This document shows positions 1-38,736 of a stretch of DNA of 64,000 bases, piece after piece. A program made the translations under genes and the position numbers. The notes beneath the pieces are model-generated. The model made no database searches, was not told the DNA's origin, and saw only the letters and a list, made by a program, of their open reading frames with translations. Source of the stretch: Cyanobium sp. T1B-Tous (GTDB taxonomy: Bacteria; Cyanobacteriota; Cyanobacteriia; PCC-6307; Cyanobiaceae); contig NZ_JAGQBE010000003.1 in the NCBI RefSeq assembly GCF_024345475.1, positions 1-64,000 of the forward strand. Reading direction: 5' to 3'. Position 1 is the stretch's first letter; the number at the start of each line of letters is the position of its first letter.

Positions 1-1530
1 GTCGTAGCCCCGTTCGGGCTGGATCAGCACGGTCACGTGGCGCCAGCGCAGGCCTCGGATCGGGAAGCCGGCCCTGCCTCCCCTCGGCGTTTCCAGGCCC
101 GCATCCTGGTGCGGAGGCCCCCAAACCGCTTCCAGGCGCTCGCGCCCCTGGCTGGGCAACTGGTCGTACCAGGCCAGGTAGTCCTCGAGAGGGAGATGGT
201 CGAGCGGGGAGCGGTGCCCGCTTTCCGGGTCATTGCTGCGGCCGGCCAGCAGCTGCTGGATCAGCTCCTCCCCGCTGCTGGGCCACTCGGGCCCGAGGGC
301 ATAGCCCGCCTCGGCCAGCCAGCGCAGCATCAGCGCCGTGGAGGCCGGGGTGTCGAGTCCCACCCCATTGGCCAGCCGGCTGTTGCGGGTGGGGTAGTTG
401 GCCAGCACCAGGGCGATGTGCCGGTCGGCGGCGGGGGTCTGGCGTAGGCGGATCCAGTTGGCGGCCAATTGGGCAATCCACCCGAGGCGCCCCGGGTCCG
501 GCTGGTAGCGCTGCAGGGCCGAGGCCAGCTGGACGCTGGCCCCCACCGTCTCCTTGAAGGCAGCGATCCGTGTTGTCAGCCGCCCATCCAGCTCCGGCAG
601 GGCCACCTGCAGGGTCAGGTCAGTGGGCCCGAGGCCGATGCTGCTCTCCTGCCAGCGGCTGCGGGGTTGGCTGCTGCAGAGCATCTGAAACACCGGTACC
701 CCCAGCTGCTCCCACAGCGGTGCCCCCAGCCCGGCCTCCTCAAACTGCACCGACGCAAAGGACGTGCTGCACAGCACGGCTTGCACCTGTTCCCGGCCCA
801 GGAGGTCAGCCACCCCCTGCTGGACGGCCCCATCCCGCAGGCCGCTGACCCAGAGGGCACGGGGGCATAACCCCACCCCGCGCAGGGCGGCCAGGCTGGC
901 CTCCATCAGGGCCAGATCACCGGCCTGCAACAGGGCGCGATAGGCGATCAGGCCGATCCGGGGCCCAGGCTCCTCGCGCCAGTCGTGGGCAAGGGGATCA
1001 GCCAGGGGCTCGACCGTCGGGGGCGCAGGCTGCTCCCCCTGCAACAGGGCCCGCAGGGTGGCCAGCAGGCGGCGGAGGTTGGCGGGGCCGCCTTCCCTCA
1101 GGCCATGGGCCAGAGCCACGGCCAGGGCCGGATCCACGGTGCCGAGGCTCGCGAGGGTGACCTCCTCCTCCGGGGTGCCAGCCAGCACCAGCAATTGGCG
1201 CCCGGCCTGGGAGCGGGACCAGTCCTGCAGGCGTTCGAGTCCATAGCTCCAGTGGCCCCGGCCGCCCAGCAGCCGCACAACCACCAGTTGGGCATGGCGC
1301 ACGGTGGAGCTGAGGTAGTGGTCGATCTGGGCGGGATGGCCCAGGGCCGAGAGGTTCAGCCCCCGCAGCTCAGCCCCCAGCAGCTGGGGTTCCTGCGCCA
1401 GCAGCTGATCGATGGCCAGGAGATCGGTGTCGGCGCTGCTGAGCAGCACCACCGGTGCGGGCGGCTGCTCCACCAGGGCGCCCCAATCGGCCGCCTCCGT
1501 TCCCCCCGGTACCGATGCCAAGCGATGCAT
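1..1530 (-). CDS. cobN: Cobaltochelatase subunit CobN (5' part, cut by window edge)
   Basis: CobN is the large, ChlH-related subunit of the ATP-dependent chelatase that inserts cobalt into the corrin ring during cobalamin synthesis. The frame is open from an ATG at 1530 to the left edge, giving about 510 residues of a family that is usually 1,100-1,300 long, so only the N-terminal part is present. The last visible residues read IQPERGYD, which matches the conserved QP-x-RGY block of CobN/ChlH. Earlier segments (GLIAYRALLQAGD, ANYPTRNSRLANGVGLDTPAS) are also typical of CobN. The gene diverges from ilvE-metH across an 85-bp gap, so the two units may share a promoter region; MetH is a B12-dependent enzyme. 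The alternative, magnesium chelatase ChlH, is less likely because the N-terminus and the ANYP motif fit CobN better. Confidence 0.88.
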   Translation of the reverse strand, partial: MHRLASVPGGTEAADWGALVEQPPAPVVLLSSADTDLLAIDQLLAQEPQLLGAELRGLNLSALGHPAQIDHYLSSTVRHAQLVVVRLLGGRGHWSYGLERLQDWSRSQAGRQLLVLAGTPEEEVTLASLGTVDPALAVALAHGLREGGPANLRRLLATLRALLQGEQPAPPTVEPLADPLAHDWREEPGPRIGLIAYRALLQAGDLALMEASLAALRGVGLCPRALWVSGLRDGAVQQGVADLLGREQVQAVLCSTSFASVQFEEAGLGAPLWEQLGVPVFQMLCSSQPRSRWQESSIGLGPTDLTLQVALPELDGRLTTRIAAFKETVGASVQLASALQRYQPDPGRLGWIAQLAANWIRLRQTPAADRHIALVLANYPTRNSRLANGVGLDTPASTALMLRWLAEAGYALGPEWPSSGEELIQQLLAGRSNDPESGHRSPLDHLPLEDYLAWYDQLPSQGRERLEAVWGPPHQDAGLETPRGGRAGFPIRGLRWRHVTVLIQPERGYD

Positions 1531-1615
1531 GGACCCATCCTGCTTGCTGCAGTGAGAAGATCGGGGCATCCCGGCCACCGGCCGTCGCGCCTGCTCCGCC
1601 CGCTTCGCCCCCACC

Positions 1616-2533
1616 ATGCACCAGTTCCTGCCCTTCGCCTGGTTCGGTGGCAAATGCGTGCCCTTTGCGGAGGCCACCCTCTCGGTGGCCACCCATGCGC
1701 TCCACTACGGCACCGGGGCCTTCGGCGGCATGCGGGCCCTGCCCAATCCCAGCGATCCCGCCGAGATCCTGCTGTTTCGCGCCGACCGCCACGCCCGACG
1801 GCTCAGCCAGAGCGCCCGGCTGCTGCTCACTGAGCTGCCCGAGGCCACCATCCATGACGCGATCGTCACGTTCCTGAAGGCCAACAAGCCCACCTGCCCG
1901 GTGTACCTGCGGCCCTTCGTGTACACCAGCGACCTCGGCATTGCGCCCCGTCTGCACAACATCGAGACCGACTTCCTGATCTATGGCCTGGAGCTCGGCG
2001 ATTACCTGTCCCCGGATGGGGTGAGCTGTCGGATCAGCTCCTGGACCCGCCAGGAAGACCGCTCCCTGCCCCTGCGGGGCAAGATCAGTGGTGCCTACAT
2101 CACCAGCTCCCTGGCCAAAACGGAGGCCGTCAAGAGTGGCTTCGATGAGGCGCTGCTGCTCAACAGCCGCGGCAAGGTGAGCGAGGCCAGTGGCATGAAC
2201 CTGTTCATCGTGCGCGACGGGGTGCTGATCACGCCGGGTGTCGACCAGGACATCCTTGAGGGCATCACGCGAGCCAGCGTGCTGGAGCTGGCCCAGGCCA
2301 TGGGCATCCCCACCCTGGAGCGCCCGGTCGACAAGAGCGAATTGTTCGTGGCCGATGAGGTGTTCCTCAGTGGTACCGCCGCCAAGGTCACCCCGGTGCG
2401 TCGGGTGGAGACGACGGACATGCCAGCCCATCGGCCGGTGATGACCGCCATTCGGGAGAGGCTCACCGCGATCACAGAAGGCCGCGATCCCGCCTATGAC
2501 CACTGGGTGACCCGAATCCGCGTTGACGGTTGA
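1616..2533 (+). CDS. ilvE: Branched-chain amino acid aminotransferase
   Basis: PLP-dependent fold-type IV transaminase that makes the last step of leucine, isoleucine and valine synthesis from the 2-keto acids and glutamate. The 305-residue length is normal. Visible signatures are the PLP-lysine region [13 protein letters not shown] (about residues 153-165), the EASGMNLF block and [11 protein letters not shown]. The ATG at 1616 gives the expected N-terminus [13 protein letters not shown]. The stop at 2531-2533 lies 5 bp before the metH ATG, so ilvE and metH are probably cotranscribed. Dihydroxy-acid dehydratase (ilvD), which supplies its keto-acid substrates, is in the same window at 39.8 kb. 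A D-amino acid transaminase is possible within this fold but fits the motifs less well. Confidence 0.95.
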
Positions 2534-2538
2534 GCGCC

Positions 2539-5500
2539 ATGACAACGGCAGTGGCATCCCAGGTGGGACAACGGGTGGGCTTTCTGGAGCGGCTGCATGC
2601 CCCGGAGCGTCCCGTGCTGGTGTTCGACGGGGCCACGGGCACCTCGCTGCAGCAGATGGATCTGACCGCCGACGATTTCGGCGGGGCGGCTCTCGAGGGC
2701 TGCAATGAATATCTGGTCTTCACCAGACCGGACGCTGTGCAGGCGGTGCACCGGCAGTTTCTGGAGGTGGGCGCCGATGTGATCGAAACCGACACCTTTG
2801 GGGCCACCTCCCTGGTGTTGGCGGAATACGACATCGCCGATCAGACCTTTGCGCTCAACAAGCGGGCCGCCGAACTGGCCCGGGAGATGGCCGATGCCTA
2901 CTCCACCCCTGAGAAACCCCGCTTTGTGGCGGGCTCCATGGGGCCCACCACAAAGTTGCCCACCCTGGGCCACGTCGATTTCGACACGATGAAGGCGTCC
3001 TTCGCCGAACAGGCGGAAGGGCTGATTGCCGGCGATGTGGATCTGTTCATCGTCGAAACCTGCCAGGACGTGCTGCAGATCAAGGCGGCCCTGCAGGGCA
3101 TCGAGCAGGCCTTCGCCAAGACCGGCCAGCGCCGGCCGTTGATGGTGAGCGTCACGATGGAAACCACCGGCACGATGCTGGTGGGCTCGGACATCGCCGC
3201 GGTGGTGGCGATCCTCGAGCCGTTCCCGATCGATGTGCTCGGGCTCAACTGCGCCACCGGCCCGGAGCAGATGAAGGAGCACGTGCGCTATCTGAGCGAG
3301 CACAGCCCCTTTGTGGTGAGCTGCATCCCCAATGCCGGCCTGCCCGAGAACATCGGCGGCGTGGCCCACTACCGGCTGACGCCGGTGGAGATGAAGATGC
3401 AGCTGCTGCACTTCGTCGAAGACCTGGGCGTGCAGGTGATCGGAGGCTGCTGTGGCACCACCCCAGCCCACATTGGCGCCCTGGCCGAGCTCGCCGCTGA
3501 GCTGCAGGCGGCGCCCCGTCCGGTGCGCACCCCCCAGACCCAGCACGAGCGCCCCCTGCTCCAGGTGGAGCCCTCGGCCGCCTCGATCTACGGCACCACG
3601 CCCTATCACCAGGACAACTCTTTCCTGATCATTGGCGAACGGCTCAATGCCAGCGGCAGCAAAAAGGTGCGGGAGCTGCTGGCTGACGAAGACTGGGACG
3701 GCCTGGTGGCCGTGGCCCGGGGCCAGGTGAAGGAGAACGCCCACGTTCTGGACGTGAACGTCGACTACGTCGGTCGTGATGGCGAGCGGGATATGCACGA
3801 TTTGGTGAGTCGTCTGGTGACGAACGTCAACCTGCCGCTGATGCTCGACTCCACCGAGTGGCAGAAGATGGAAGCCGGCCTCAAGGTGGCCGGCGGCAAG
3901 TGCATCCTCAACTCCACCAACTACGAAGACGGCGATGAGCGCTTCTTCAAGGTGTTGGAGTTGGCCAAGGCCTATGGCGCGGGTGTGGTGGTGGGCACCA
4001 TCGACGAGGAGGGGATGGCCCGCACGGCGGAGCGCAAGTTCGCCATCGCCCAGCGGGCCTATCGCGATGCCCTCGAGTTCGGGATTCCTGCCCACGAAAT
4101 TTTCTACGACCCCCTGGCTCTGCCGATCTCCACCGGCATTGAGGAAGACCGTCTGAACGGGGCGGCCACGGTGGAGGCGATTCGCCGCATCCGCTCCGAT
4201 CTTCCTGGGGTGCATGTGGTGTTGGGGGTCAGCAACGTGAGCTTCGGCCTCTCCCCGGCGGCCCGCATCGTGCTCAACTCCGTCTTCCTGCACGACTGCT
4301 GTGAGGCCGGCATGGATGCGGCCATCGTCAGCCCGGCCAAAATTCTCCCGCTGGCCAAGATCAGCGAGGAGCACCAGCAGGTTTGCCGCGACCTCATCTA
4401 CGACCGGCGGCGCTTCGACAGCGACGACGCCGGGGCGATCTGCAGCTACGACCCCCTGACCGTGCTCACCACCCTGTTTGAGGGGGTGAGTGCCAAGGAG
4501 GCCCGGGCTTCGGGCCCCTCCCTGGCCGATCTTCCGGTGGAGGAGCGTCTCAAGCAACACATCATTGATGGCGAGCGCATCGGCCTGGAGGCCTCCCTCA
4601 ACGAAGCGATGCAGACCTATCCGCCCCTGCAGATCATCAACACCTTCCTCCTCGATGGCATGAAGGTTGTGGGGGACCTGTTTGGTTCTGGCCAGATGCA
4701 GCTCCCCTTTGTGCTGCAGAGCGCTGAAACGATGAAGGCAGCGGTGGCCCAACTCGAGCCCCACATGGAAACCGTGGAAGGGGAAAGTTCGGCCAAGGGC
4801 AAGTTCCTGATCGCCACGGTGAAGGGCGATGTGCACGACATCGGCAAGAACCTGGTGGACATCATCCTCACCAACAACGGTTACGAGGTCATCAACCTCG
4901 GCATCAAGCAGAGCTGTGAGGCCATCATCGAGGCCCAGCAGGAGCACCAGGCCGACTGCATCGCCATGAGTGGTCTGCTGGTGAAGTCAACCGCCTTCAT
5001 GAAAGACAACCTCGAGGCGTTCAACGCGGCGGGGATTGCCGTTCCCGTGATCCTCGGCGGTGCGGCCCTCACGCCCCGCTTTGTGCATGGTGACTGCCGC
5101 GCGGTTTACAAGGGTCAGGTGATCTATGGCCGGGATGCCTTCGCCGATCTGCGCTTCATGGATGCGCTGATGGAGGCCAAGGGCGCAGGCAGCTGGGACG
5201 ACCACCAGGGGTTCCAGGGGCCGATTCCGGACGGGCTGGGCCTGGCCAGCACGGACAGTGCCACCCCTATCTCCCCAGGGGACGACCCGGCACCCCCTGC
5301 GGTGCCCGCAGATGGGCCGGAGGCTGGACCCAACGATCACCGTTCTGAAGCCGTGCCCGAGGAGCCTGCGCTCGATCCCCCGTTCTGGGGCAGCCAGGTG
5401 CTCACCGAGCAGGACATCAGCCTGCAGGAGGTGTTTGCCTACCTGGACCGCAATGCCCTGTTTGCCGGCCAATGGCAGCTGCGCAAGACCCAGCAGCAGA

Positions 5501-6189
5501 GCAGGGAGGAGTACGAGTCGATGTTGGCTGAAAAGGCCGAACCCGTTCTGCAGCAGTGGATGCAGCGGTGTCTTGAGGAGGAGCTGCTCACCCCACGGGT
5601 GGCCTATGGCTATTTCCCCTGCGGGCGCAGCGGCAACGCCGTGGTGGTGTTCGATTCCAACGAGCCCCACCAGGCTCTCGGGCGCTTTGCCCTGCCCCGT
5701 CAGCGCTCGGGGAATCGCTACTGCATTGCTGATTTTTACCGTGATCTCTCGGTGGGAGGCGATGGCGCTGGCACGCCTACCGATGTGTTGCCGATGCAGG
5801 CCGTGACGATGGGGGATAGGGCCTCTGCCTTTGCGCGCGAGCTGTTCAAGGCAGACCAATACAGCGACTACCTCTACTTCCACGGGCTTGGGGTGCAGAT
5901 GGCTGAGGCCCTGGCGGAGTGGGTGCATGCCCGCATCCGGCGGGAACTGGGCTTTGCCGATCCAGCTGCCATGCCGTTGCGGGATGTGCTTGCCCAGCGC
6001 TACCGCGGCAGCCGTTACTCCTTCGGCTATCCGGCCTGTCCCAATGTGGCTGATTCCAGGCAGCAGCTCGCCTGGTTGGGGGCTGATCGCATTGGTCTCA
6101 CCATGGATGAGAGCGATCAGCTCGATCCGGAGCAGAGCACCACGGCCCTGGTGGCCCTGCACAGCCAGGCCCGCTATTTCTCGGCCTGA
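2539..6189 (+). CDS. metH: Cobalamin-dependent methionine synthase
   Basis: Transfers a methyl group from methyltetrahydrofolate to homocysteine through protein-bound methylcobalamin. The 1,216-residue protein has the full module order. The homocysteine domain carries zinc cysteines in NCATGPEQ (about 237) and GGCCGTTP (about 302). The pterin domain begins near [12 protein letters not shown] (about 364). The B12 domain has the lower-ligand motif GDVHDIGKN (about 763). The C-terminal reactivation domain has SFGYPACPN (about 1160). Between the B12 and reactivation domains, roughly residues 885-945, lies a Pro/Ala/Asp-rich stretch that looks like an extended linker. An in-frame TTG at 2530 overlaps the ilvE stop; I prefer the ATG at 2539. 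The gene follows ilvE directly and stands opposite cobN. Confidence 0.97.
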
Positions 6190-6236
6190 GCGGACGCGCT
6201 CCCTCTTAGCCTGCAGGCGTTGTTGCTGAGCAGGCC

Positions 6237-6509
6237 ATGGCCATTGCAGGCCCCGGCGGCGTTGACGCCGCGATCGCATCGGGCATCGATCTCGATGGCA
6301 CACCCATCCCCGCGGAAATGATCGCCCTCTACGCCGAGGTGATGGACCTGGAGAGTCAGCGCGCCCGCAGCGGCGTCAAGAAGTCGATGCGCAACCGGAT
6401 CGTCAAGACCGGGGCCAAACACTTCGACCAGGCCACGCTGGATGCCCGCCTGCAGGCGGCTGGATGGGAGGGGCTCAAAGCCAAGGAGATCGCGTTTTTC
6501 TACGCCTGA
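6237..6509 (+). CDS. Small conserved-looking protein of unknown function
   Basis: A 90-residue soluble protein that I do not recognise. The N-terminus is Gly/Ala-rich and weakly structured. The middle is a charged helix (AEVMDLESQRARSGVKKSMRNR) and the C-terminus (LQAAGWEGLKAKEIAFFYA) is also helical. It has no signal peptide, membrane segment or cysteines. It begins 48 bp after metH and could be transcribed with it. A clean ATG, codon use like its neighbours and a good fit between flanking genes support it as a real gene. The basic central segment could contact nucleic acid, but that is only a guess. Confidence 0.7.
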   Translation: MAIAGPGGVDAAIASGIDLDGTPIPAEMIALYAEVMDLESQRARSGVKKSMRNRIVKTGAKHFDQATLDARLQAAGWEGLKAKEIAFFYA

Positions 6510-6539
6510 GTCGCCACCGACCCGTCGCAACCGCTACGC

Positions 6540-6767
6540 CTAGCTGCACATCTCCTCGAGGGCATCGATCACCTCCTGCTGAAACTCCTCGAGATCGGAG
6601 GAGTCGCTGAGATCGATTCCCTCACCGGCGGCGTTCTGGGTGAGCTCCTGGAAATGGAAGGCCCCCTCTCCATGGGCGAGGAACTCCATGGCGGAGGGTT
6701 CACCGCTCTCTTTGTAGGCGTCGCAGAGGGCCAGGAAGGCCGCATCCTCGGTGAATTCCCAGCTCAT
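6540..6767 (-). CDS. Small acidic protein of unknown function
   Basis: A 75-residue, strongly acidic protein with N-terminus MSWEFTEDAAFLALCDAYKE and an acidic C-terminal helix (SDLEEFQQEVIDALEEMCS). It has no signal peptide or membrane span. The plus-strand frame across the same bases is longer but reads as low-complexity shadow sequence, whereas this minus frame has an ordinary amino acid balance and a clean ATG. It converges on the 90-residue gene with a 30-bp gap. I cannot assign a function. Confidence 0.65.
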   Translation of the reverse strand: MSWEFTEDAAFLALCDAYKESGEPSAMEFLAHGEGAFHFQELTQNAAGEGIDLSDSSDLEEFQQEVIDALEEMCS

Positions 6768-6977
6768 GAAGGGGGCCGCGCTGAAAAACAGGGTGAACGC
6801 GCTAACCGACCTTTAACGCCTCCCCCCCGGAATCCGTCAACCACCTCGCCCCACTTTGTTCCGGTGTGTTGCCTTTGCTCGGGGTCTGCGGGCCTCCGGC
6901 AGGCTGCGCTTCCGGCCCGATGCAGTGCCGGGATCCCTTGGCCAGACTGGCGGAGCTGCCCTGTCCGATTCCCTGTC

Positions 6978-7361
6978 GTGAGCGATTCCAGCCCCAGCCT
7001 CCCGCCTTCGCTCAATGTGCTCGGTGAGCCGCTGGAGGTGTGTGGGTGCCAGCCGATGACCGGTTGGTTCCGCGATGGCCACTGCCGCACCAACGCCGCG
7101 GACCTCGGCCGCCACAGCGTGTGCTGCGTGGTGACGGAGGCGTTCCTGCGCTACAGCGCCGCCCAGGGCAACGATCTCAGCACCCCGGCCCCGGCCTACG
7201 ACTTTCCAGGCCTCCAGCCTGGGGACCATTGGTGTGTCTGTGCACCCCGCTGGCTGGAGGCCTATGAGGACGGCATGGCCCCACCCGTGCGGTTGGAGGC
7301 CACGGAGGACTCCGCCCTCGACGTCATTTCCCTGGAACTGCTGCGGGCCAACGCCGCCTAG
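6978..7361 (+). CDS. DUF2237 family protein
   Basis: A 127-residue protein of the DUF2237 family, whose function is unknown. The whole pattern is visible: NVLGEPLEVCGCQPMTGWFRDG, then GNDLSTP, FPGLQPGDHWCVC and RWLEAYEDGMAPPV, with several conserved cysteines that could bind metal. I chose the GTG at 6978 because it sits just before the domain. The frame is open for another 324 bp upstream, but that part overlaps the 75-residue minus-strand gene and has no family similarity. It converges on the SDR gene with an 18-bp gap. Confidence 0.88.
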   Translation: MSDSSPSLPPSLNVLGEPLEVCGCQPMTGWFRDGHCRTNAADLGRHSVCCVVTEAFLRYSAAQGNDLSTPAPAYDFPGLQPGDHWCVCAPRWLEAYEDGMAPPVRLEATEDSALDVISLELLRANAA

Positions 7362-29933: not shown

Positions 29934-31079
29934 ATGGCACTCACCAATTGGATGGGCGCCTTCGGGCGAGCCCAGGCGCTCGATGTCAGCCATGACCTGG
30001 AGCGGGGATACGAATCCGCCCTGCTGATCCAGAGCATCGAGCTCGAGCACTACAACGATCGCCCCGTTCGCCCCGAGCTGGATCTGCGGATCCCTCGCTC
30101 CGCCCAGGCCCAGTTGTTGCGCCGTTTCCGCGCTGCGCTGGAGATCTGCCGTCAAGCCATCGTCACCGTGGAGCCCCGCCGGGGTGAACTGGCCGGCCAG
30201 GAGATTCGCCAGTTCCAGCTGATTGAAAGCGTGGTGGCCCGCTACGGCGCCAAACGGGACCCACTGCCGGCCATCAGCCGATCTCCCGAGGTGTTGCCCC
30301 GCAGCCTGATTGGTGTTGTTGACCAGGTGCGAAGGCAGCTGGATCCGGAGGCCGAAGCCAATGTGGTTGCCGGTTTCCGCCGTCGGCGCGACTCCACCCT
30401 GGTGTCGCTGCGCATCCTGTTGCTGTTGATTCTGGTGCCGGTCCTGGTTCAGCAGATCAGTCGCACCTATGTGGTGTCGCCGCTGGTGGATCGTTTTGCC
30501 CCAGACAACGCCTTCCTCACCTACCCCAAGCCCAAATTGGAGGAGAAGGCCGTTGAAAAACTGCGGGTCTTCCAGGCGGAGATCGAGTTCGATGCCCTGT
30601 TGCAGGGAAATCCCCTACCCAGCCGCGAAGAGTTGCAGGCCCAGCTCGCCAGCCGGGCCCAGGAACTCAAGGAGGAGGCCGATCTCGAAAGCACCCACGC
30701 CATCAAGAACGTCCTGGCCGACCTCGGCGGACTTCTGGGTTTCGTCTTGGTCTGTGTGTTTGGCCAGCGGGATCTTCAAGTGCTGCGCGGCTTCCTCGAT
30801 GAACTGGTCTACGGCTTGAGCGACAGCGCCAAGGCCTTCGCGATCATTCTCTTTACGGACATCTTTGTCGGGTTTCACAGCCCCGAAGGCTGGACCGTTC
30901 TCCTCGATGGCGTGGCCCATCACTTGGGGCTTCCGGCTCGCGAGAACTTCATCATGTTGTTCATCGCCACCTTCCCGGTGGTTCTGGCCACCGTGTTCAA
31001 GTACTGGATCTTCCGTTATCTCAACCGGGTTTCTCCTTCCTCGGTGGCCACCTTGCACAACATGAACGGTGGGGGCTGA
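29934..31079 (+). CDS. pcxA: Proton extrusion protein PcxA (CemA family)
   Basis: A 381-residue membrane protein of the CemA/PcxA family, which is needed for light-induced proton release and links to inorganic carbon uptake. The N-terminal half is soluble and helical. Transmembrane segments are visible at about 162-182, 270-285, 302-318 and 345-367. The family ending FKYWIFRYLNRVSPSSVATLHNMN is well conserved. The ATG at 29934 lies 4 bp after the psb32-like stop; the 3' end overlaps cobP by 11 nt. The three genes are probably one operon. Confidence 0.93.
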   Translation: MALTNWMGAFGRAQALDVSHDLERGYESALLIQSIELEHYNDRPVRPELDLRIPRSAQAQLLRRFRAALEICRQAIVTVEPRRGELAGQEIRQFQLIESVVARYGAKRDPLPAISRSPEVLPRSLIGVVDQVRRQLDPEAEANVVAGFRRRRDSTLVSLRILLLLILVPVLVQQISRTYVVSPLVDRFAPDNAFLTYPKPKLEEKAVEKLRVFQAEIEFDALLQGNPLPSREELQAQLASRAQELKEEADLESTHAIKNVLADLGGLLGFVLVCVFGQRDLQVLRGFLDELVYGLSDSAKAFAIILFTDIFVGFHSPEGWTVLLDGVAHHLGLPARENFIMLFIATFPVVLATVFKYWIFRYLNRVSPSSVATLHNMNGGG

Positions 31080-31629
31080 TTCGGGCCCAGGCCCCATCCT
31101 CGTGCTCGGGCCCGCCCGCAGTGGCAAAAGTCGCTGGGCCGAGCATCTGGCCCTCCAGTCCGGCCAACCGGTGGTGTACCTCGCGACCGGCCCCTCACCC
31201 ACGGAAGACGATCCGTCCTGGTCCAGCCGGATCGCGGCCCATCAACGCCGGCGCCCCTCCAGTTGGCGCACCCTGGAGGTGGGAGCCGATCTGGCTGCCT
31301 CCCTCCACGATCTTCAACCTCCTGGCCTCGCGCTGGTGGACTCCCTCGGCACCTGGGTGGCTGGCGGGCTCGACCTGGATGCGGGGGTTTGGGTGGAGCG
31401 TTGTGCGGCGTTAACGGACGCGCTGCGCCAGTGCGCCGTGCCCGTGGTGCTCGTGAGCGAGCAGACCGGCTGGGGCGTGGTCCCCCCCACGGCCATCGGG
31501 GGGCTGTTCCGTGACCGTCTGGGTGCCCTGGAGCAGCAGCTGGAGCCCCTCTGCTCCGGTCTCTGGCTGGTGGTGGCGGGTCGCGCCCTGGATCTGAGGG
31601 TCTGCAGCGTGCCCGTCCCCGCTGGTTAA
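31069..31629 (+). CDS. cobP: Adenosylcobinamide kinase / guanylyltransferase
   Basis: The bifunctional CobP/CobU enzyme phosphorylates adenosylcobinamide and adds GMP, preparing the lower-ligand loop of cobalamin. The 186-residue protein has the P-loop LGPARSGKSRWAEHLA, the VDSLGTWV block, and the VSEQTGWGVVPPTA segment equivalent to the family VxNEVGxGIVP. The usual N-E-V is replaced by S-E-Q-T, a notable but conservative change. Start is a GTG at 31069 within the pcxA 3' end. It is one of several cobalamin genes scattered in the window (cobN, metH, hupE, cobW). Confidence 0.9.
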   Translation: MGADSGPGPILVLGPARSGKSRWAEHLALQSGQPVVYLATGPSPTEDDPSWSSRIAAHQRRRPSSWRTLEVGADLAASLHDLQPPGLALVDSLGTWVAGGLDLDAGVWVERCAALTDALRQCAVPVVLVSEQTGWGVVPPTAIGGLFRDRLGALEQQLEPLCSGLWLVVAGRALDLRVCSVPVPAG

Positions 31630-36231: not shown

Positions 36232-37335
36232 CTACGCCGCTCCGGTGGCCTCCAGCAAGGTGGCCTCGATCGCGGCTTGATCGAGCTGAAAACCGAGCAC
36301 CACCAGGTCCAGGCCCGCCGGGGGTGCCGGCTGATGCCCAGCTGGTTCTGGCGATCCGGTTTCAAACCAGCACTCCAGCCGTGGGCCGACGGCCTGAATC
36401 TGCAGGGGGCGAGCCTTTCCCTCCAGCCAGAGGCGTCCCTTCAGCCGGATCAGCCCGGGATCCTGGATCAGCTGGCTGAGCTGCCGTTCCAAGGCCGGTC
36501 GGTCAAAGGCACCACTGAGTTGCAGGGCCAGCGACTCCATGGCGACGTGGCTGTGATCGTGGTGATGGTCGTGCTCATGCTCATGCTGATGGTCGTGCTC
36601 ATGGTGGTCATGGGAGGCGTGGCCATCGGCATCGGGCTCCTGCCGCTCCAGACCCAACACCAGCTCTGGTGAGACCGCACCCCGTTCCATGGTCAACACG
36701 GCAGCACCGGGACGCACCTGGGGGATCAGACGCGATTCGAGCTCGTTGAGGGATGCTGCGTCGAGGCAATCCGCCCGGCTGATCAGCACCAGATCGGCTG
36801 CCTCCAGCTGTTCGGCAAACAACTCCTCGATCGCGGACCCATGGTCGAGGCTGGGATCGGCCAAACGTTGGGCCTCCAGGGCGGCGGGGTTGGCCACCAC
36901 AGCTCCGGCGGCCAGCGCCTCTCCGTCCACGACGGCCACCACCCCATTCACCCGAATCCGGGTGCGGATCTCGGGCCACTGCAGAGCGGCGATCAAGGGC
37001 TCGGGCAGGGCGAGTCCGCTGGTTTCCACCACGATGCCGTCGAGGCTGTCGGCGCGCGCCAACAGGGTCTCCATCGTCGGTAAAAAGTCGTCCTGCACGG
37101 TGCAGCAGAGGCAGCCGTTGGCCAATTCCACCAACCGCGAGTCCACCTCGTCCTCTGGACAGAAGCCGCAGCTGCGCAAGAGGGCCCCATCGATCCCCAC
37201 CTCGCCAAATTCATTGACCAGCACCGCGAGGCGCTGGCCGCTGTTCAGGAGCAGATGGCGCAGGAGGGTGGTTTTACCGGCACCGAGAAACCCGGTCACC
37301 ACGGTGACCGGCAGACGTTGCTGAGACGCTGTCAT
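36232..37335 (-). CDS. cobW: CobW-type G3E GTPase (metal chaperone)
   Basis: A 367-residue COG0523 GTPase. It has the P-loop TGFLGAGKTTLL (residues about 14-25), the metal-binding CxCC motif in NGCLCCTV (about 76), the SRADCLD base-recognition motif, and a CobW C-terminal domain (about 275-365). A His/Asp/Glu-rich loop at about residues 238-264 contains roughly a dozen histidines and could hold metal. Members of this family deliver zinc, cobalt or nickel; here the position directly after hupE (2-bp gap) and a cobalamin riboswitch argues for cobalt. A zinc role (ZNG/YeiR-like) is the main alternative. Confidence 0.92.
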   Translation of the reverse strand: MTASQQRLPVTVVTGFLGAGKTTLLRHLLLNSGQRLAVLVNEFGEVGIDGALLRSCGFCPEDEVDSRLVELANGCLCCTVQDDFLPTMETLLARADSLDGIVVETSGLALPEPLIAALQWPEIRTRIRVNGVVAVVDGEALAAGAVVANPAALEAQRLADPSLDHGSAIEELFAEQLEAADLVLISRADCLDAASLNELESRLIPQVRPGAAVLTMERGAVSPELVLGLERQEPDADGHASHDHHEHDHQHEHEHDHHHDHSHVAMESLALQLSGAFDRPALERQLSQLIQDPGLIRLKGRLWLEGKARPLQIQAVGPRLECWFETGSPEPAGHQPAPPAGLDLVVLGFQLDQAAIEATLLEATGAA

Positions 37336-37337
37336 CG

Positions 37338-38006
37338 TCAGCCGGCCACGGCCGCGACGGCCCAGCTCGCTCCACAGCCGGCGAGGGCCAGGGCCACCCA
37401 GCGCAGGGTGGCGGGGGACAGACGGGAGGCCAGGGGCCGAAGCAGCACCAGGGCAAGGATCAGCAAGCCCCCCTGGCTGATCAGCAATCCAGCGGCGTAG
37501 GCCGCCACCGGCATCGATGTCCAGCCGAAGACCGGGCCACTCAGCACATAACCGTGCAGGGCCATGGCAGGCAGCAGCAGCCCCAGGGGCAGGCGTCGCA
37601 GGAGCACCAGCGCCTCCAACACCAGGGTGCAGGCCACCAGGACTTCAGCACCGGGCAGACCGGGCCAGAGCAGGCCGGCTCCACTGCCCAGCAAGCCGAT
37701 CACCAAGAGGCCGAGGGCCCAGCGCAGGCGGCGCTGCAGGCCCACCAGCGAAAGAGCGAGCAGGAACAGCAGATGGTCAGGACCAAGCACGGGGTGGGCC
37801 AGACCACTCAGCACCCCGTTGAAGACGGTGGGCTTCAGCTGACCGAGGTCTGCAACGTGGTGGGCCTGGGCTGGGGCACCCAGCAGCAGGCAAGCCACTA
37901 GGGCCGTGGCCAGAACAGCTGTGCCGCCTAGCACTGGGCTAGGCCAGGATTGGACCCGCAGGGTTGGTCCACGCAGACCTGGCGTCTGGGTCGTCTGATC
38001 AGTCAT
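37338..38006 (-). CDS. hupE: HupE/UreJ family transporter, probable cobalt uptake
   Basis: A 222-residue membrane protein with a cleavable-looking N-terminal signal ending at AQA before HHVADLG, then about six transmembrane segments. The signature motif of the family is present: GLAHPVLGPDHLLFLLALSL, where the His and Asp residues are metal ligands in HupE/UreJ. Such proteins carry nickel or cobalt. The cobalamin riboswitch just upstream on the same strand, and cobW downstream, point to cobalt for B12. The ATG at 38006 follows the riboswitch by about 30 nt; a start at 38036 would fall inside the riboswitch and is rejected. Confidence 0.88.
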   Translation of the reverse strand: MTDQTTQTPGLRGPTLRVQSWPSPVLGGTAVLATALVACLLLGAPAQAHHVADLGQLKPTVFNGVLSGLAHPVLGPDHLLFLLALSLVGLQRRLRWALGLLVIGLLGSGAGLLWPGLPGAEVLVACTLVLEALVLLRRLPLGLLLPAMALHGYVLSGPVFGWTSMPVAAYAAGLLISQGGLLILALVLLRPLASRLSPATLRWVALALAGCGASWAVAAVAG

Positions 38007-38034
38007 GGGTCCGGTCCGCGCCGAGGGAAGAAAC

Positions 38035-38165
38035 AAGACCGGCGGGCGTTCTGACTGGACGGTCGAGATGACGCGCCTTCACAGCTGCGGGACAGTGCCG
38101 GATTCGCACCGGACTTTCCCCCTTTCGTCCGGTGGCTGTTCCCCACCGGAACCGGTGTGCTGATG
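38035..38165 (-). promoter_or_regulatory. Cobalamin riboswitch, short type
   Basis: Read on the minus strand the region holds the conserved cobalamin-aptamer core: GGGGAACAGCC, then GGGGGAAAGTCCGGTGCGAA, TCCGGCACTG, TCCCGCAGCTGTGAAGG, and the B12-box-like AGTCAGAACGCCCGCC. A closing helix is possible between ACCGG (38151-38155) and CCGGT (38038-38042). The GCCACTG segment and outer arms of the large class are missing, so this is a compact class II-like form. It precedes hupE by about 30 nt and should lower hupE-cobW expression when cobalamin is plentiful. Confidence 0.9.
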
Positions 38166-38181
38166 CTATCGGCCTGTCGCC

Positions 38182-38706
38182 CTATCGGCAGGCCAGGCTG
38201 TCGCGGGTGGCCACGCCCGACACCGGATTGGTGCCTGTGGCCCTCTGGCAGAGGGCCTTCTGCTCGGGCAGATCGAGCACCGCGTCACTGAAGTCGGCTC
38301 CATCGATGCGGGCCCCCTTGAAGTGGCTCTGCATCAGCATTCCGTTGCGCAACACCGCACCGCGCAGGTCAGCGTCCTCGAAGTGGCTGGCAAAGGCCAC
38401 CACGTCCTCCAGGTTGGCGCCCTGCAGATCGGTGCCGCGCAGGTCGCTGCTGTTGAACACCGCCCCGCGCAGGTCGGTGCCGCTGAGGTCAAACCCGGCC
38501 AGGGAGGCCTTGAGAAACTCCTGCTGCTGCAGGTTGCGGCCGTGCATATCGGGCTGAAGGTCCTGCAGCGAGCGCTGGCTGCGCAATTCGGGCGCGGTGA
38601 TGGCCCAGGCCGGTGATACCGCTAGGCACCAGGCCAGGAGGACGCCAAGCGCCCCCATGGCCCACCCGGACCAACGGGTCAGGCGGGTTGCTGTCAGGGG
38701 GCCCAT
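38182..38706 (-). CDS. Exported pentapeptide repeat protein
   Basis: About 174 residues: a signal peptide (WAMGALGVLLAWCLAVSPAWA, cleavage after AWA, only part shown) and then a run of pentapeptide repeats of the A(D/N)LxX type, for example FDLSGTDLRGAVFNSSDLRG and ANLEDVVAFASHFEDADLRG. Such repeats fold as a right-handed beta-helix. The C-terminus carries two cysteines (ALC and LACR) that may form a disulfide. Cyanobacteria have lumenal pentapeptide proteins of this kind with unknown roles. Starts at 38730 or 38733 are also possible but approach within 4-7 bp of the divergent gene. Confidence 0.82.
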   Translation of the reverse strand: MGPLTATRLTRWSGWAMGALGVLLAWCLAVSPAWAITAPELRSQRSLQDLQPDMHGRNLQQQEFLKASLAGFDLSGTDLRGAVFNSSDLRGTDLQGANLEDVVAFASHFEDADLRGAVLRNGMLMQSHFKGARIDGADFSDAVLDLPEQKALCQRATGTNPVSGVATRDSLACR

Positions 38707-38736
38707 GGGCGCGCACTTACGGTGGGTCATCAAGTT

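Follow-up and report, generated by a model that had tools for sequence, protein, structure and literature searches.

The 64,000-nt stretch of Cyanobium sp. T1B-Tous DNA analyzed here (contig NZ_JAGQBE010000003.1, positions 1 to 64,000; hereafter the window) carries a gene for a HupE/UreJ-family permease followed by a gene for a COG0523 GTPase, which raises the question of whether one cobalamin riboswitch controls both and whether the metal they handle is cobalt. Picocyanobacteria are abundant producers of pseudocobalamin, and their acquisition and channelling of cobalt have mostly been inferred. The leader, the two genes and their genomic context are described below; all features of the operon lie on the minus strand.

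The original prediction had placed a cobalamin aptamer at 38035-38165. Rfam scanning bears this out: the segment 38171-38024 (-) aligns to the whole RF00174 model (positions 1-189) and scores 66.6 bits, the cut-off being 31.5 (E 3e-14 for the 64-kb window). RF00174 is the best scorer of its own clan at this site, neither RF01482 nor RF01689 scoring higher. The predicted location was therefore right, its extent slightly short, and the proposed distance of about 30 nt to hupE holds, as the ATG lies 28 nt past the predicted aptamer end and 17 nt past the Rfam end. This is the single RF00174 match in the 2.71-Mb genome, which is 99% complete. Among 45 relatives, covariation is seen in P2 of the aptamer (38024..38171) and in its P6 extension. 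A large peripheral domain seems to be absent, since 57 positions of the model are skipped in the Rfam alignment and replaced by 9 nt, and every relative has a short single hairpin as its P6 extension; in cobalamin riboswitches, the preference for adenosyl or methyl forms is set by peripheral domains (PMC10907184). The likely ligand of the hupE leader is pseudocobalamin, since every cobalamin riboswitch tested responds to it in addition to cobalamin (PMC9600662).

A probable -10 element, TAGCAT (38163..38168), marks a putative promoter directly 5' of the aptamer. Among 45 aligned leaders from picocyanobacteria, 42 possess a TANNNT element 13-20 nt before the P1/P2 anchor, against 5.0 expected from shuffles. 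This conserved element is likely the -10 box, so that the hupE-cobW operon probably has its own promoter; a consensus scan found no full sigma-70 site at the leader. The gene for a pentapeptide-repeat protein (38182-38733, -) ends 10 bp before the aptamer, and the predicted -10 box falls within the first bases of the Rfam match.

The leader ends, just before hupE, in a hairpin corresponding to P13 (CGG-CGCGGA-CCG, 38012..38023), which RNAalifold recovered with no hint given and which is the last element of all 45 aligned leaders. Its stem pairs are C-G or U-A and G-C or A-U, with both-sided changes at three of four pairs (in 9, 18 and 11 sequences). The loop has the consensus CG[C/A]GGA, relatives showing GAGGA or GCGGA, and deviates to CUCGGA in L042 and three other leaders and to CGAGGUA in L058 and L063. 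It contains a Shine-Dalgarno-like GGA (38015..38017) that is invariant in the 45 leaders, lies 8 nt before the hupE ATG and is complementary to L5. The L5 loop UCCCG (38088..38092) is likewise invariant (45/45) and equals the L5 consensus in the literature (PMC10653944). Bases C, G, G, G and A of L13 stand opposite G, C, C, C and U of L5, and the single variable loop base (C or A) is bulged, giving five pairs and one bulge in every one of the 45 leaders. Because these kissing pairs never vary, the evidence for the L5-L13 contact is complementarity, and covariation support comes from the P13 stem alone.

In the whole leader set, pairing is present in 97.3% of cells, compared with at most 42% after a shift of the partners against each other by one to three columns. 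P13 was found in 115 of 117 leaders, a count that presupposes a stem of at least three pairs, required by design; the unbiased support for P13 is thus the RNAalifold result together with the sliding control. Ten loci were additionally checked with Rfam. The minimum-free-energy fold of the window leader does not show P13, and its stability does not exceed that of shuffles (z 0.06), an uninformative score. An alternative pairing in that fold, CCGGUC-GACCGG, was dropped; by inspection it is not present in marine leaders.

This arrangement resembles that of the env8 hydroxocobalamin riboswitch (PDB 4FRN), where P13 holds the ribosome-binding site and its loop kisses L5 through a bulged helix, a 1-2-nt bulge making the docking ligand-dependent (PMC10907184). 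A mismatch plus a bulge is reported for env8 (PMC10653944), whereas the hupE leader has five pairs and one bulge. No terminator-like site was found between the aptamer and hupE, and transcriptional attenuation was rejected on this ground. Taken together, P13 with its Shine-Dalgarno-like GGA, the complementarity to L5, the agreement with env8 and the missing terminator lead us to conclude, from sequence comparison, that the hupE leader is a predicted translational OFF switch.

The first gene of the operon, hupE (ATG at 38006, stop at 37338; 222 aa), encodes a HupE/UreJ-family permease (PF04955, 55.6 bits, cut-off 23) that is predicted to import cobalt. It has the family motif HPxxGxDH as HPVLGPDH (residues 71-78) and the invariant residues H49, H50, H71, D77, H78, E121 and H151. 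The nearest named relative is Cyanobium sp. FACHB-13342, with 86% HupE identity. The predicted model is all-helical with ten helical elements (mean pLDDT 79), a moderate model for a family expected to have six transmembrane helices; relatives in the PDB were found neither by sequence nor by fold at E <= 0.001, and structure therefore adds nothing on metal choice. The suggested link between B12 elements and hupE in some bacteria is already published for marine cyanobacteria, where hupE is controlled by a B12 riboswitch and its product is a probable cobalt importer (PMC4284471, PMC7689651). In Synechocystis, either cobalt or methionine rescues a hupE mutant (PMC7689651, PMC4284471).

The second gene, cobW (36232..37335), starts 2 nt behind the hupE stop (TGA-CG-ATG), exactly the gap originally described. 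Its product, a predicted cobalt chaperone, scores 355.1 bits with TIGR02475 (cut-off 332.1) and is the single match to this model in the genome at E <= 1e-60. It possesses the CxCC metal motif (GCLCC, residues 74-78; 37102..37116) and two extra cysteines, C56 and C59 (37159..37170). Two cysteines occur in this segment in all 50 readable hupE-linked CobWs, and none was found there in the genome's three further COG0523 proteins, one of which belongs to a zinc cluster. Young et al. described a CobW cysteine pair, C56 and C61, that is missing in zinc-binding homologues (PMC7895991); the spacing in the window protein is CxxC instead. On the strength of the TIGR02475 score and the extra cysteine pair, the protein is classified as a true CobW. 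The His-rich stretch pointed out earlier is present as a linker (36544..36630; 14 His in residues 236-270), but as an argument for cobalt it fails, the COG0523 protein of the zinc cluster being His-rich too. The proposed cobalt role of the two genes is otherwise supported by TIGR02475, the C56/C59 pair and the riboswitch, the choice of cobalt over nickel by HupE being a prediction. We consider it well supported by these sequence features that hupE and cobW are best read as a putative cobalt supply for B12 (pseudocobalamin) synthesis.

The zinc cluster provides a natural same-genome comparison for metal specificity in HupE and COG0523 proteins. On contig C107 (L137), 1256-4219 (-) and 4205-7149 (+), a second HupE-COG0523 pair stands beside genes for a ZnuA-like binding protein and an ABC transporter, the transporter genes scoring below the cut-offs of the zinc ABC (Azt/Znu) models that they match. 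The divergent region contains a Zur-box-like palindrome (4098-4112) with three mismatches to the consensus (0.00 expected). The two pairs share the adjacency of a COG0523 GTPase and a HupE/UreJ permease; the second differs in its reversed gene order, its zinc ABC neighbours and the lack of both RF00174 and the CobW cysteines, its COG0523 protein scoring 179.1 with TIGR02475 against the cut-off of 332.1. No significant BLASTP match was found between the two HupEs of the genome. The cluster suggests that some HupE/UreJ proteins may serve zinc. A broader reading, in which HupE and COG0523 would form a recurring import-and-delivery module whose permease passes metal to the GTPase and whose metal (cobalt in the window, zinc in L137) is set by regulation and GTPase subtype, is speculative and seems to us rather doubtful.

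Pathway markers were searched family by family, with NikABCDE, SodN, MetE, CobS/CobT and CobG lying outside the search. The cobN gene is split by a contig break: its N-terminal part lies at 1-1692 (-) of the window (TIGR02257, 515.1 bits) and the other, larger part at the end of contig C79 (1198.5 bits). The two parts are likely adjacent in the genome; the contig ends have no exact overlap. Located about 35 kb from cobW, cobN co-occurs with the operon and stands outside it. In published work CobW is linked with CobNST, the late-insertion chelatase, rather than with CbiK (PMC10206600), and of the picocyanobacterial genomes examined there, which make pseudocobalamin, virtually all have cobW and cobN (PMC9361551). 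The genome of the window further contains CbiD, urease and a CbiX-family protein of two domains, for which even the best NCBIfam matches stay under the cut-off; profiles of the NicO and CbiM/NikM families found no member. Elsewhere in the window, cobU (31069-31629, +; PF02283) and an ORF recognised from its translation as MetH-like, a B12-dependent methionine synthase (2530-6189, +), are without a riboswitch.

The distribution of the gene pair was analyzed in 81 HupE loci, namely the window and 80 named relatives. A COG0523 gene directly follows hupE in 51 loci, and in 45 of those it starts at -1, +1 or +2 nt, a spacing that suggests translational coupling of hupE and cobW. On the HupE tree only three changes of linkage state are needed, compared with a mean of 27.6 after shuffling, and linked loci surround two unlinked groups, one of marine Synechococcus and Prochlorococcus and one a Cyanobium clade. 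The pattern would fit one gain and two losses of linkage on a tree whose root is not secure. Among 200 genomes of the family, CobW (TIGR02475 at E <= 1e-60) occurs in 195, above cut-off in 152, RF00174 in 151 and a window-type HupE in 170; linkage is therefore a question of position and not of gene content.

Several loci deserve separate mention. One titled Bifidobacterium breve (L053) groups tightly with the cyanobacterial HupE-CobW loci in the tree; its metagenome bin is almost certainly contaminated or wrongly labelled. In L016, RF00174 occurs as a back-to-back divergent pair (3480-3638, -, and 3691-3854, +), one riboswitch for the window-type hupE and the other for a second, canonical HupE, with cobW not beside hupE; L013 and L018 are arranged likewise. 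In L051 (2956-4504, +), a riboswitch precedes two tandem hupE genes of different type without cobW, and L048 is similar.

We consider it highly probable that the operon is a feedback-controlled cobalt supply for the synthesis of a B12-type cofactor. Under cobamide shortage, the loop of P13 (GCGGA) would be free and ribosomes would initiate at hupE. HupE would bring Co(II) into the cytoplasm, translation would continue from hupE into cobW across the 2-nt gap, and GTP-bound CobW would capture Co(II) and deliver it to a CobN-type chelatase. With plentiful cobamide, probably pseudocobalamin, its binding to the aptamer would dock the P13 loop onto L5 and hide the ribosome-binding site, and the synthesis of both HupE and CobW would stop. 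Given a B12-sensing riboswitch before a cobalt operon, the cell probably stops cobalt uptake once B12 is sufficient. The steps that we infer are ligand binding, translational repression, coupling, the preference of HupE for cobalt and the transfer of the metal to CobN.

One rival reading concerns the permease: HupE might import nickel, or nickel and cobalt alike, with the riboswitch merely trimming its level and CobW as the sole cobalt-specific part. Many HupE/UreJ proteins carry nickel (PMC2667541, PMC7689651), and the presence of urease alpha together with the failure to find a CbiM- or NicO-type importer means that HupE could also serve nickel. We nevertheless regard this as unlikely, since repression of the sole nickel route by B12 would make little sense, the genome has a second HupE, and mutant rescue ties a cyanobacterial HupE to cobalt (PMC7689651); the nickel importer families covered were NicO and CbiM/NikM. 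That the COG0523 protein serves zinc, with the operon balancing zinc and cobalt, is very improbable: zinc is a frequent metal of COG0523 proteins, and one HupE-COG0523 pair of this genome does sit in a ZnuABC cluster, yet the window protein alone scores above the TIGR02475 cut-off and carries the cysteine pair of CobW.

The mode of control could differ too: instead of masking the ribosome-binding site, the switch might end transcription early or promote mRNA decay. Termination has been postulated for another cyanobacterial B12 riboswitch, and a transcript change of about 100-fold was seen in Anabaena (PMC10878165). With no terminator-like site between aptamer and hupE, and with P13, kept in nearly all leaders, placing its GGA before the start codon in the window, we hold this mode to be improbable. 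The preferred reading remains translational control of a cobalt operon, and it is mostly expected biology, well supported. With one cobamide-sensing leader over import and chaperoning in a genome without any other RF00174 match, it would provide a single clear control point in a freshwater-type picocyanobacterium.

Riboswitch control of hupE in cyanobacteria is already published, and the coupled cobW is a modest addition and the less known part. A description of the hupE-cobW pair was not found in the literature searched, the original Rodionov/Vitreschak B12 papers lying outside that search; a metagenome survey of 2007 noted B12 elements before cobW and hupE (PMC2211319). According to a statement by Haas et al. 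(2009), cobW of cyanobacteria does not cluster with B12 genes and is not regulated by a riboswitch (PMC2770081). The predicted operon in the window and the same operon in Synechococcus sp. WH 5701 (L037) contradict this statement and would correct the published view that places cyanobacterial cobW outside B12-riboswitch control.

The closest known system is the B12-riboswitch hupE of marine cyanobacteria (PMC4284471, PMC7689651; PMC2667541), with which the window shares an RF00174-type leader directly before hupE and predicted cobalt uptake. The window differs in having cobW as its second gene, 2 nt after hupE; most marine Synechococcus and Prochlorococcus loci of our tree have cobW elsewhere. 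In Proteobacteria, riboswitch-controlled cobW clusters are known (PMC2770081), and a B12-riboswitch operon of Novosphingobium comprises a TonB receptor, a NiCoT permease and cobW (PMC7689651). The likeness to these operons is that one B12 riboswitch governs a cobalt permease and CobW together; the Novosphingobium operon uses a NiCoT permease for this purpose, and the operon of Cyanobium sp. T1B-Tous a HupE.
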